32,536 bases of DNA from Phycisphaerae bacterium (GTDB lineage: Bacteria > Planctomycetota > Phycisphaerae > Sedimentisphaerales > Anaerohalosphaeraceae). The stretch is from positions 1-32,536 of the forward strand of contig JAAYCR010000049.1 in NCBI GenBank assembly GCA_012729675.1. The letters are read 5' to 3'. Positions 3,234 to 32,536 of this stretch are shown one piece after another. The notes beneath the pieces are model-generated. The model had not been told where the DNA came from and did not search any database. It saw nothing but the letters and a program-made list of their open reading frames with translations. A program made the position numbers and the translations under genes. How positions within the stretch are numbered: position 1 is the first letter of the stretch; every line of letters starts with the position of its first letter.

Positions 3234-3263
3234 TTGACAGGGCTTTCGGGGTAGGGGTATAAT
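3234..3263 (+). promoter_or_regulatory. Consensus sigma70-type promoter for sppA
   Basis: Perfect TTGACA (3234-3239) and perfect TATAAT (3258-3263) with an 18-base spacer. The leader to ATG 3332 would be about 60 bases. The -35 boxes of this promoter and the divergent one form an inverted repeat, TGTCAA-8-TTGACA, so the two RNA polymerase sites are back to back and very close. Confidence 0.8.
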
Positions 3264-27566: not shown

Positions 27567-28202
27567 ATGACAAGATCGCAGCTCAGTCTTTTTTGTTCGG
27601 CCTTTCTGCTTTTGCTATGGATCTGCTCTGGGTGCTCGACGGTACGCGTCAGCGATCCGGCCGCGACGGCCACACAGCAATATATGACCTCCGAGGCGGT
27701 CGCCAAGGCGATTGCCCAACTCACGTTCGATTCGCTGCGAGGGCGGCGGGTGTTTGTTGACAGCTCTTATCTCTCCGAAGCGGAAAGAGGGTTTGCCTCG
27801 GCGGAGTTTCGGGCGGCGGTGCTGCGGGCAGGCGCCTATCTGCAGGCCGATCGCGAAAAAGCGGAAATCATGATCGAGGTGCGCAGCAACGGCATCGGCA
27901 TCGACCGGTATCAAAGCATGGTGGGTCTGCCGGCCATTTACGGCCCGCCGGTGGGGTCGGAGGCCGCGGGAGCCGGGGCCATCACCCAAACCGTCGTGAC
28001 CCCCGAAATCGCCCTGACCAAGCATATCAAGCAATTTGGATTTGCCAGTCTTTCATACACGGCGTACTGGATCGACACGGGTGAAATCGTGGCCGAAAGC
28101 GGCCCGTTTGTGGGCAAGACATTTCGCGAAGACTGGTGGTACTTCGGCTTTGGACCGCGAACCATCGGAAATGTACCGGTGGTGGATCTTACCCAGCGGT
28201 AG
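27567..28202 (+). CDS. Lipoprotein, similar to planctomycete DUF6655-type proteins
   Basis: Protein of 211 residues. ATG 27567 has GGAG five bases upstream and opens directly into a signal peptide. The probable lipid-attachment Cys is residue 23 in WICSGCS; a Cys at the -3 position is unusual. The mature part has SEAVAKAIAQLTFDSLRGRRVFVDSSYL, a segment AEIMIEVRSNGIGID, a Gly/Pro-rich middle and a C-terminal YWIDTGEIVAESGPFVGKTF. I believe this matches a planctomycete family of unknown function (DUF6655); the assignment is from memory. It is followed after 31 bases by the AsmA-like gene, so both probably act in the envelope. Confidence 0.8.
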   Translation: MTRSQLSLFCSAFLLLLWICSGCSTVRVSDPAATATQQYMTSEAVAKAIAQLTFDSLRGRRVFVDSSYLSEAERGFASAEFRAAVLRAGAYLQADREKAEIMIEVRSNGIGIDRYQSMVGLPAIYGPPVGSEAAGAGAITQTVVTPEIALTKHIKQFGFASLSYTAYWIDTGEIVAESGPFVGKTFREDWWYFGFGPRTIGNVPVVDLTQR

Positions 28203-28233
28203 CGTCTAACAAATTGTCATTCAGAGGCACACT

Positions 28234-30174
28234 ATAAAGCTAAAAAAAGCCATCCGGTTTTTCGTCAAGCTGATCGTGGTAATCAGCATCCCGATCATCG
28301 TGCTGGTCGTGCTGTTTGAAACCGGCACGGCGGGTCGCTATCTGTTGACCGCCGCCGGCGGCAGAGTCGGGCTGGATCTGTCGGCCGAGAAGGTCAAAAT
28401 CGGCTATGGCGGGACACTGCGGCTGCGCCGATTTTCTGCGGCGTTTTCGGACAAAGAATCGCCCTTCTTCACCGCCCACGCCATCGACATTTCGATGAAC
28501 AGCCTGGCCGATATGCTGACGCGCCGCGACGTGAACGTCGCCGACATTCGGCTGGTCAACCCCGTGCTGACGCTGCGCACCGACGAGGCCGGACAGTTGA
28601 ATATCCTCCAACTGGCGGAACTGCGACGCCCCAGCGCCAAACGCCCGGATTTGGAGGAGGCCGAACCGCTGAAGATTCCCGCCGTCACACTGATCAATGG
28701 AACGGTCCACTATGAGCCATTCGACGCTGAGCCGATTACCGTTTCGCGTATTCAGTTTGACAGCGCCGTGGCTGACGACGAGGCGATTGCGCTCCGGCTT
28801 TCTCTGCCGGGGCAGAACACCCTCAGCGGCACGCTGCATCCCGAAACACTGGCCCACACGCTGACGCTTCAGATCGAAAATGTCGCCGCCCTGCCCGACC
28901 CGGCCAAAACCGACCTGCCCGGCACGTTCAGGATCGTGGCGGACTGGCACAGCGAGGCGGTTATGCGGCAGCCATTCCGTTTGGCCGGGGATTTGCATAT
29001 CCGGCGGATGACGCTGGACGGCGCCGAGGCGGCACTGCAAGCGACTGTCGAGATCGGGCCGGAAACCGCCGCCGCACAGCTTCGGCAGCTTCGGCTTGAC
29101 CCGTGGCCGTTATGGGCACAACAGGACGAACCGCTCGATCCGCTGACAGCCGAACAGGGAACCATCACTCTGGAGTATGCCAATCGGTCTGTCGCCGTCA
29201 ACGACCTGAACATCGCCCTGCTGAACGGGCAGACCGAGATCAACGCGACGCTGTACCCGCAGCAGTGGAACAATAGCCGCGGCCAGATACGCTTTGACGC
29301 GATAGACCCGGGGCCGTTGGTTGATCAGGACATCTTCAAAGACGCCATTTTGAGCGGTGCGGTGACGATTGAACCGGCGACGGATGCGCGGGCGATGGAG
29401 CCGATGGCCGTGGCGATGAAGCTGCACCTTGCCGGCCCGATACTTGAAACCGCCGGACTGGAGGAAATCCGCGCGAACGGCTATCTCGGCAGCACGCGGC
29501 TGGTAACTGACGACGCCGAGATTCCGATTTTCGGCGGACGAATTTTGCCATGGATCAGCCTGACCCGTCGAAACGGCGAGTTCTTCTTTCATCTGATCGC
29601 CGACGTCAAAGACATTGAAGTGCAGCGGGTCGCGCACACCTTCACCGGCCAGGACGAAATCATCCCCGGCAAACTGTCAGGCACACTGCGCGGCCGCAGT
29701 TCCGGCAGCCTGCAAACCCTCTCCGGCAGCGCCGATATTGCGCTGACCGAGTCGGACTTGATGAACACACCGATTATCGGAGCGGTCTATAGTGGATTGA
29801 ATCTTTCATTCCGGGATCTGGACCCCAAGGGCAGCGGGGCCGTCAAGCTGTCCGCCCACGGCGAAAAGGTCGAGATCATGAGCTTTGAGTACTTCAATCG
29901 CGGCGTCGAAGTCCGCGGCGCCGGGGCCGTCGAAGCCGTCACACGGGGCAAAGAATCGCCGATAAGCGGCTTTGCCACCGGCTCAATGCGGCCGCTGCGC
30001 GACACCCCTATCCCCGGTATGCGCGAGCTGGATCAACTGCTCCGCGGCCTTCAGGTGGGACTGGCAAGCGTCAAAATCGAAGGCACGCTCGGCGACGCAC
30101 AACCACGGCTGGTGCCGCTGCCGGAAGTCCAAAACGCCCTCCGCGCCCTGCTCTGGCAGCAGCGTGGCGATTAG
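28234..30174 (+). CDS. AsmA-like membrane-anchored protein, apparent ATA start
   Basis: Protein of 646 residues if it starts at ATA 28234. AGAGG (28223-28227) lies six bases before that ATA, and the frame then reads KLKKAIRFFVKLIVVISIP, a normal signal anchor (basic residues, helix at about 11-28). The first standard start, GTG 28276, has no ribosome site and removes the basic residues; CTG 28270 is little better. The rest is beta-rich. The N-terminal part (AEKVKIGYGGTLRLRRFSA, then DIRLVNPVLTLRTDEAGQLNI) and the C-terminal part (VKLSAHGEKVEIMSFEYFNRGVEVRGAGAV) fit the AsmA/TamB-like superfamily, which moves phospholipids or assembles outer-membrane proteins across the periplasm. The exact subfamily is uncertain. 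Confidence 0.85.
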   Translation: MKLKKAIRFFVKLIVVISIPIIVLVVLFETGTAGRYLLTAAGGRVGLDLSAEKVKIGYGGTLRLRRFSAAFSDKESPFFTAHAIDISMNSLADMLTRRDVNVADIRLVNPVLTLRTDEAGQLNILQLAELRRPSAKRPDLEEAEPLKIPAVTLINGTVHYEPFDAEPITVSRIQFDSAVADDEAIALRLSLPGQNTLSGTLHPETLAHTLTLQIENVAALPDPAKTDLPGTFRIVADWHSEAVMRQPFRLAGDLHIRRMTLDGAEAALQATVEIGPETAAAQLRQLRLDPWPLWAQQDEPLDPLTAEQGTITLEYANRSVAVNDLNIALLNGQTEINATLYPQQWNNSRGQIRFDAIDPGPLVDQDIFKDAILSGAVTIEPATDARAMEPMAVAMKLHLAGPILETAGLEEIRANGYLGSTRLVTDDAEIPIFGGRILPWISLTRRNGEFFFHLIADVKDIEVQRVAHTFTGQDEIIPGKLSGTLRGRSSGSLQTLSGSADIALTESDLMNTPIIGAVYSGLNLSFRDLDPKGSGAVKLSAHGEKVEIMSFEYFNRGVEVRGAGAVEAVTRGKESPISGFATGSMRPLRDTPIPGMRELDQLLRGLQVGLASVKIEGTLGDAQPRLVPLPEVQNALRALLWQQRGD

Positions 30175-30221: not shown

Positions 30222-32536
30222 TTATGGTATAATCTGCCAATTCAGTTTAGGATAGCTGAATCCTTCGTCGATTGCCCAAATATTGACAAAATCCCAACCG
30301 ACAAAGCTGGCCTGTTGCCGAATCTCAATATCGGTTAATGCTTCTCCATATCCATTGTCCGGCCCGACCGTATCCAGGAAATAACAGGATGCTATAACAA
30401 GTTTCGACTGGTATCCTATCAATGCGCCCACTCTATAGTTCCCGCTGACACTGCCGACTGAATAACTATTTGACACATTACATTCGTGTGTGTACCCTAA
30501 CAGTCCGCCGATATCGCGGTTTCCGCTGACAGTACCGGTCGCATAACAATTGACCACGCTATCCCGCAGACACTCGCCAATCAGACCTCCTACCGCAGAT
30601 CCCCCTTCAACATTTCCCGTTGCGTAACTTGTAGAAACTGTGCTGTCGACATTATTGTATCCTATCAAGCCGCCGATAAAATAACTGCTCCCGCAGACAT
30701 TAGAGGCCGAATAACCGTTTAAGATGTTGGCGCCATTATTGTATCCTATCAAGCCGCCGACAGTGGAATCTCCATACACTTGACCGATGGAATAACACCC
30801 TGATACATTCCCTCTGACTGTTGCTCCCAAAAGACCGCCCACATTATGCATACCATAAATTTCAACCGCTGTGCTGCAGTTTGAGATATCACCGTATCCA
30901 AAAGAACCGGCTAATCCTCCGACGGAATGATCGCTATGGGCAGAAATTTGACCGCCGGCAAAACAACCGGCAACTGTACTCTTGGTGATAGTTCCTGCAA
31001 GAAGACCAACATTATAGCTTCTGTCACTGCCTGTCGTTATTGAAGCGTTTTCGATTATTAGATTTCGGATTTCCGCGTCATCAACATATCCAAACAGTCC
31101 AAGATATGCCTTGCTTTGACCTGCAGTATCGATCCGAAGTTGACGAATAGCGCATCCCTTGCCGTCCCATTGCCCCGTAAACGGGGTGCCTTGAAAACTG
31201 CCATCAACCATCGTGCCGGCGGCAATGACAGCGGTATTGAACGTGTGCTCCGACAGATCGATATGATTGACCAATTCAAACCGCTTATCCATCAGTGACT
31301 GCTCTGTGCCAATCGCCACCAGTTGTTCTGCTGTCGAAACATAATATCCACCCGCTCCGTCTCCCGGAAGCGCTATGACATTCAAATTGACTTGCACCTC
31401 TTGGAGGCTATCGAGAGCGTCTTCAGTGTAAATATCAAACGCGTAGGAATACTCGCCTTCCAAAAGTCCGGCGATATTAAACGAAAGTGTAACGGATTGG
31501 CTCTGGTTGCTTGCAAGGGTACCGCCGACCGGATTGATGGACAGCCACACTGGTAGCCCATCCTTGAAATCGATGCTCCAGTCTAATGGCTCGCCTCCGT
31601 CGTTCATTAACGTCAGAGTACGGGATTTGGGCGGCGAGATGCCTTCTAAAAGCGCCAATGAAAACGACTCCGGACTGCGGTTCAGGATGCCCGGCCCTCG
31701 CACGGTAAAGAAGCGGCGGTCTTTAATTGCGTAGCCGTCGTCAAAGAACAGCCGCACCTCATAATCTCCCGGCTCGCTGATGCCCGCAAACTCGACCGTG
31801 CCGTTTGTGATTCCGGCCGTTCCCATCTGCGTCCCGTCGGTATAAAACCACTGCTGCATAACGCCCGACCACGGATCAATGCCGGCGCCCTTTTGACAAA
31901 TACCCAGCCAGTCGCCAGCATTTCCCGGCACATCGGCAAAATCTACGCTTATCCGTTCGTTCTCCCCGACGCTTCCGGCCACCGTAAGCGTCGGGTCGAT
32001 ATTCAGCGTCAGCCAATTGTCTGAAAAGGTAAGCAAGTCTTGCAGACCAACGCTGCCGTCTCTGTCAAAGTCGCTGCGAATGGGTTTCTTGAACGTCTGC
32101 CAGTGCTCGGCAAAAACCGAAAAATCCTCATAGTTGACCCAATCATCTCCGGTAGCCTCCGCCGGATTGCCCCGACTGACCACCGACAAACTGGCCTCGG
32201 CCGTATTCCCGTACGCCCCGGCGTTGATGCGCTTCCCGTGCGGCCAGGGTTCGTTGCCGTAATCGTCGTCCGGATGGCCAATATCAATCCCCGGACTGGT
32301 CACGTTATCTTTGACCCATTGTTCGCTAAACGCATCCCATCGACCCTGCTGTGACTTCAAATGGAAGTCCCCGGATTCAGCATCCGCAAAAAAAGGAAAT
32401 TGACCATAATTGTACTGTCCAATTTCATTAAAGTTATATAAGTCTATATTACGATTAACTTTCCAGGGGATTTGTCCCCATGGAAAGGAATTGTCATGGA
32501 ACGACGTTATGAGATTCGAAAACGTGAAATACTGCA
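30222..32536 (-). CDS. GLUG-repeat surface protein with internal dockerin-like segment (5' partial)
   Basis: The frame is open to the right edge, so the N terminus lies outside; 770 residues are visible. The first 60 visible residues end in ADAESGDFHLKSQQGRWD, followed by SPGIDIG and KRINAGAYGNTAEAS, the usual end of planctomycete right-handed beta-helix domains. A dockerin-like pair follows (VNYEDFSVFAEHW; DFDRDGSVGLQDLLTFSDNWL). Next come an Ig-like part and a BACON-like repeat (LTLMNDGGEPLDWSI to LSINPVGGTLASNQSQSVTLSF). The C-terminal 300 residues hold eight GLUG units of about 26 residues, with cores such as VGGLAG, VGGLLG and IGGLIG. Likely a large secreted or surface adhesin or polysaccharide-binding protein. 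An in-frame TTG near 32360 is not the true start. Confidence 0.88.
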   Translation of the reverse strand, partial: QYFTFSNLITSFHDNSFPWGQIPWKVNRNIDLYNFNEIGQYNYGQFPFFADAESGDFHLKSQQGRWDAFSEQWVKDNVTSPGIDIGHPDDDYGNEPWPHGKRINAGAYGNTAEASLSVVSRGNPAEATGDDWVNYEDFSVFAEHWQTFKKPIRSDFDRDGSVGLQDLLTFSDNWLTLNIDPTLTVAGSVGENERISVDFADVPGNAGDWLGICQKGAGIDPWSGVMQQWFYTDGTQMGTAGITNGTVEFAGISEPGDYEVRLFFDDGYAIKDRRFFTVRGPGILNRSPESFSLALLEGISPPKSRTLTLMNDGGEPLDWSIDFKDGLPVWLSINPVGGTLASNQSQSVTLSFNIAGLLEGEYSYAFDIYTEDALDSLQEVQVNLNVIALPGDGAGGYYVSTAEQLVAIGTEQSLMDKRFELVNHIDLSEHTFNTAVIAAGTMVDGSFQGTPFTGQWDGKGCAIRQLRIDTAGQSKAYLGLFGYVDDAEIRNLIIENASITTGSDRSYNVGLLAGTITKSTVAGCFAGGQISAHSDHSVGGLAGSFGYGDISNCSTAVEIYGMHNVGGLLGATVRGNVSGCYSIGQVYGDSTVGGLIGYNNGANILNGYSASNVCGSSYFIGGLIGYNNVDSTVSTSYATGNVEGGSAVGGLIGECLRDSVVNCYATGTVSGNRDIGGLLGYTHECNVSNSYSVGSVSGNYRVGALIGYQSKLVIASCYFLDTVGPDNGYGEALTDIEIRQQASFVGWDFVNIWAIDEGFSYPKLNWQIIP

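Follow-up and report, generated by a model that had tools for sequence, protein, structure and literature searches.

How translation begins in a 646-codon frame that has none of the three common start codons at its beginning is the question raised by the window, by which we mean the whole 32,536-nucleotide stretch of DNA analysed here, contig 39 of a 96-contig MAG (2.80 Mb, 99.92% complete, 0.39% contaminated). On the plus strand, an in-frame TAA at 28207-28209 precedes a frame that stays open from 28210 to the TAG at 30172-30174, and no in-frame ATG, GTG or TTG occurs between this TAA and the GTG at 28276-28278, the first common start codon. A preliminary description had proposed that the gene starts at ATA 28234, behind a ribosome site and ahead of a basic signal anchor, and both elements were confirmed. 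The motif AGAGG (28223-28227), containing the GAGG core (28224-28227), is separated by the 6-nt spacer CACACT (28228-28233) from the ATA (28234-28236), which opens a frame of 646 codons plus TAG (28234-30174); the codons from ATA onward encode KLKKAIRFFVKLIVV. Read from ATA, the best 19-residue hydropathy window scored 3.07 and was preceded by four basic residues, with the hydrophobic anchor at residues 9-27 (28258-28314). Read from GTG 28276, the best window scored 2.17 and no basic residue preceded it, in agreement with the earlier statement that this start would cut off the basic residues. A gene for a DUF6655 lipoprotein-like protein of 211 aa, read from ATG 27567 on the same strand (27567-28202; Pfam DUF6655, E 7.6e-20, over cut-off), ends 31 nt before the ATA.

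We then quantified the Shine-Dalgarno (SD) pairing with the 16S tail of the genome. The duplex energy was -5.8 kcal/mol at ATA 28234, compared with -2.9 kcal/mol at both GTG 28276 and CTG 28270, -3.1 at ATT 28213 and ATT 28219 and -0.5 at ATC 28252. In the earlier description of GTG 28276 and CTG 28270 as standard starts, the term is loose for CTG, which does not belong to the three common starts. For calibration, the median was -6.2 kcal/mol at 195 orthologue-anchored starts of the same genome and -2.9 kcal/mol at 3,240 random sites, 25% of which reached -4.9 or lower. A 4-base SD core located 4-10 nt upstream was found at 112 of the 195 own starts (57%) and at 2,259 of 31,619 ATA triplets (7.1%; 1.35 Mb of the genome, both strands); because 7.1% of ATA triplets carry such a core, the combination of SD and ATA is by itself only suggestive, that is, weak evidence for a start. 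Furthermore, the duplex energies of the AsmA-like gene in its relatives were spread widely (-8.0, -3.8, -7.6 and +1.6 kcal/mol), so the SD is no firm marker in this gene. A start at another codon, most plausibly GTG 28276 with a shortened N-terminus, would sacrifice all basic residues and part of the anchor, and each of the alternative codons has a weaker duplex than the ATA. As 83 of the 195 own starts are without the simple SD core, its lack at GTG 28276 disfavours this codon short of excluding it, and together with the orthologue starts described below we regard this alternative as very unlikely.

Orthologues provided the more decisive comparison. Among 161 genomes searched, 24 other than the own genome matched the protein at E<=1e-20, and starts were read in four of them. 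In the congener G003, the gene begins with TTCGAGGGGTATCT-ATG, which lines up nucleotide by nucleotide with TTCAGAGGCACACT-ATA in the window, and in the congener G002 it begins with TTCAAGAGATACCGACTT-ATG; when the proteins are aligned, the two congeners have their ATG codons in the same column as the ATA. A third congener, G001 (77% complete), gave no match to the gene. By profile-model coordinates, the starts of two distant orthologues lie within about five codons of the ATA place and precede basic residues and a hydrophobic anchor; the start in G139 is a GTG, inferred from its GAGG (an in-frame TTG is also present nine codons upstream), and that in G107 is an ATG without an SD. In each of the five cases (window, G003, G002, G139 and G107), a DUF6655-like gene directly precedes the gene, as identified by profile in the window and by reading translations in the other four. 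None of the four relatives starts at the position of GTG 28276, and the check on close relatives that had been suggested for the ATA position returned ATG in both congeners holding the gene. A near-cognate codon therefore occupies the start place of the orthologues, and a canonical start is absent there. The relatives settle the start position at the ATA place. Since the congeners have ATG there and the distant orthologues start nearby, a canonical start, most simply ATG, is ancestral for the gene, and the own genome differs from its congeners by one transition. The other 20 matching genomes include 16 in which the order-level homologue lies inside an open frame of 1,098-1,203 aa (for example L166 and L168-L173) and the best match listed for it spans chiefly the C-terminal half of the own protein (646 aa); the form found in the genus may be a shortened version.

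The ATA is known from a single MAG, and it is one base away from the codon of both congeners. An error in the consensus, or a rare allele from a minority strain in a population that otherwise has ATG and an ordinary gene, is accordingly the main rival explanation, which we consider possible but clearly the less probable account. We looked for a second assembly of the species and found none. The site is 4.3 kb from the contig end, and the MAG looks clean of frame errors, with one weak candidate among 242 queries, a figure that says little about substitutions. To the same rival belongs the result of a survey of start codons, in which 60 contigs of G003 (0.82 Mb) were set against 81 stretches of the own genome, the window among them (1.35 of 2.80 Mb). 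The initial 933 reciprocal best ORF pairs were reduced to 291 by removing overlapping shadow ORFs and then to 242; the second step took out 49 pairs on account of identity below 38%, an alignment that fell short of roughly 90 residues or the lack of a start within range in G003. At the place of the G003 start, the own genome has a canonical codon in 195 of these 242 pairs. The remaining 47 were read by eye: many reflected slippage, a canonical start lying within a few codons, and several weakly anchored pairs were ambiguous, some of which may be non-coding frames. The AsmA-like gene alone combined a near-cognate codon, a kept SD and no canonical start nearby; as it had been known before the survey, its recovery there does not count as a separate discovery.

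Genome-wide use of ATA as a start was rejected, there being no second clear case among these 242 pairs, which cover about half of the genome. The ATC, ATT, CTG, AAG and ACG cases had a canonical start in frame nearby or upstream, except L137, which lies deep inside the alignment without an SD. In a minus-strand ORF of L048 (G000:C28:1-20000), the ATG start of G003 likewise falls opposite an ATA of the own genome, but the probable start is a GTG in the same frame, located three codons further upstream and preceded by a GAGG; the GTGA at this site contains TGA in another frame. An altered initiation machinery was likewise discarded, as the anti-SD tail of the 16S rRNA and the initiator anticodon were both normal. 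A search by exact matches with an initiator-type anticodon-loop pattern, with the first anticodon base left free, gave one match, CAT, in a tRNA-Met. IF3 is present, and the genome contains a PF01171 match over cut-off, which we take to indicate that AUA is decoded in the ordinary way during elongation. Editing of the third base of the ATA from A to I was also set aside: its context, UAA, departs from the UACG motif of TadA.

We next asked what the gene encodes and whether it is maintained. Proteins of the AsmA/DUF748 family carry a membrane anchor at the N-terminus and, after it, a long region rich in beta structure. The label 'AsmA-like' of the preliminary description depends on weak profile hits: the protein matched DUF748 at 32.1 bits (E 4.5e-8), below the cut-off of 50, and all three orthologues matched DUF748, one of them also AsmA (best E 6.7e-4) and one YhdP (0.0086). 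No match exceeded the curated AsmA or DUF748 cut-off, NCBIfam gave no match, and the search of solved structures returned nothing credible (best E 0.9). The structure model consisted mostly of strands, but its mean pLDDT of 44 was too poor for a fold search. From these weak profile hits, we describe the protein as probably AsmA/DUF748-like. Identities for the gene were 47.9% between the own genome and G003, 43.8% between the own genome and G002 and 56.8% between G003 and G002; the corresponding values for the upstream gene were 73.0%, 70.2% and 79.2%. These stand in similar proportions, so the own branch of the AsmA-like gene is not accelerated. Differences from G003 were least frequent at the second codon position and most frequent at the third (0.415, 0.279 and 0.583 for positions 1, 2 and 3). 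The gene is fast-evolving, with 5.8% of the 242 pairs equally low in identity, and the frame is intact and under constraint. In the available text of a study of start-codon evolution, no switch to AUA is listed among 61,358 ancestral AUG starts, and selection preserving AUG starts is reported to be weaker in fast-evolving genes (PMC5622118).

Another way to account for the ATA is that it marks the loss of the start; the gene would then be transcribed but yield practically no protein and be on its way to becoming a pseudogene, with other DUF748-like genes perhaps compensating. Initiation at AUA can be very weak, and the genome has three further DUF748-like frames, all below the family cut-off. 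In emm4 group A Streptococcus, ralp3 has ATA in one lineage and ATG in another, as with the present gene and its congeners; unlike here, the ATA occurs in both historic and emergent strains, and the authors suspect little translation, according to the part of the report available (PMC11238559). Against a silent gene stand the intact 646-codon frame and the unaccelerated own branch, although a very recent mutation would look alike. We judge this outcome improbable.

Collectively, these results make it probable that the ATA serves as a start codon of a rare and weak type. We assign a probability of roughly 0.6 to the reading that a single ATG-to-ATA change took place and that ribosomes still initiate at AUA, though less often and in a manner sensitive to IF3. 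Three elements of this reading are inferences: the reality of the base, the use of AUA and the extent of the reduction. In the proposed course, the ancestral canonical start, most simply ATG, would have become ATA by one transition in the species or strain, and the GAGG site would still position ribosomes at the ATA. The initiator tRNA (CAU) would pair with the AU of AUA and leave a third-position mismatch; IF3 would disfavour such mismatched complexes, and output may fall without having to vanish. The protein would retain its basic N-terminus and anchor and be produced at a lower, IF3-sensitive rate. The points in favour are the ATG of the congeners, an SD of -5.8 as compared to -0.5 to -3.1 kcal/mol elsewhere, 646 codons free of stops and the presence of IF3. 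The points against are that the change is one assembled base in one MAG, that the SD is average and not strengthened and varies among relatives, that no switch to AUA is listed in the count of ancestral AUG starts cited above, and that the AUA levels of E. coli reporters, at most 1% of those with AUG, would be near silence (Hecht et al. 2017, as cited in PMC12864459).

Published work lends support to the earlier claims that bacteria seldom initiate at AUA and that expression is lower when they do; IF3 acts against such starts. In Staphylococcus aureus, AUA start codons of infC, ccpN and citZ were shown by ribosome profiling and reporters, with non-canonical starts giving about 10% of AUG in poor medium and the AUA of ccpN up to 30% in rich medium; infC, ccpN and cvfC1 (AUU) have extended SDs, as far as the accessible text of that study describes (PMC13009471). 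The present gene resembles these in being a chromosomal gene with a candidate AUA start, and expression in S. aureus was below the AUG level; it differs in that its SD is average and that its AUA start is known from one MAG base alone. In E. coli O104:H4, an ATG-to-ATA change of rpoS lowered the protein up to 5-fold (PMC12864459, available part). This, too, is a single G-to-A transition of the start ATG in an otherwise intact gene, but the rpoS change arose in laboratory culture and the protein level was measured, whereas the window is known from sequence alone.

The preliminary description had further allowed that the AUA makes expression dependent on initiation factors, and infC of the same genus served as an internal yardstick for IF3 control. 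In the own genome, in G003 and in G002 this gene appears to start at ATC, and in G001 at ATT (L032 1252-1254 in G000:C31; L033, L034 and L031 on the minus strand), behind GAAAGG in all four genomes, with duplexes of -7.4 to -8.0 kcal/mol. A TTG that already lies within the conserved part is the closest of the common start codons; our survey mistook this internal TTG, which the genomes share, for the start of infC and was therefore blind to the gene. As excerpted, one report gives infC starts of ATT in E. coli and ATC in Streptomyces with IF3 autoregulation and, for Streptomyces sigR, a GTC start whose ribosome site is very extensive and whose regulation was tested (PMC5472188). The apparent infC starts of the genus match this autoregulatory habit; a narrow literature search, which is no proof of absence, found no paper on near-cognate infC starts in planctomycetes. 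As with infC and sigR, IF3 would be expected to act against the non-canonical start proposed for the AsmA-like gene. An extended or very strong SD of the infC or sigR type is absent at the ATA (-5.8 vs the own-start median of -6.2 and the genus infC values), and regulation was tested for sigR only. Moreover, no unusual mRNA fold surrounds the start (z -0.54; 0.44 and 0.81 in relatives), and the non-canonical codon is not conserved between species, both congeners holding the gene having ATG. Because the SD is average, the RNA fold ordinary and the ATA not shared by congeners, we conclude that the case is one of a single start-codon change with reduced expression rather than regulatory design. 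An AUA start fixed and kept by selection, placing an envelope gene under infC-like IF3 control, would make envelope building track initiation-factor supply in a planctomycete; the evidence leaves this barely credible, the least probable of the accounts considered. Taken as a whole, the earlier interpretation was partly supported: the relatives agree with a start position at the ATA, and control by initiation factors as a designed feature found no support.

If the base is real, the locus would provide a natural AUA start in a planctomycete and a candidate addition to a known, rare kind of near-cognate start. Gene finders restricted to ATG, GTG and TTG would misplace such a start and cut off the membrane anchor. 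Beyond the TAG of the gene, a large open frame occupies 30222-32534 on the minus strand and runs off the contig end; its translation shows numerous short repeats rich in glycine (GGLIGYN/GGLLG), which appear to resemble GLUG-type repeats.
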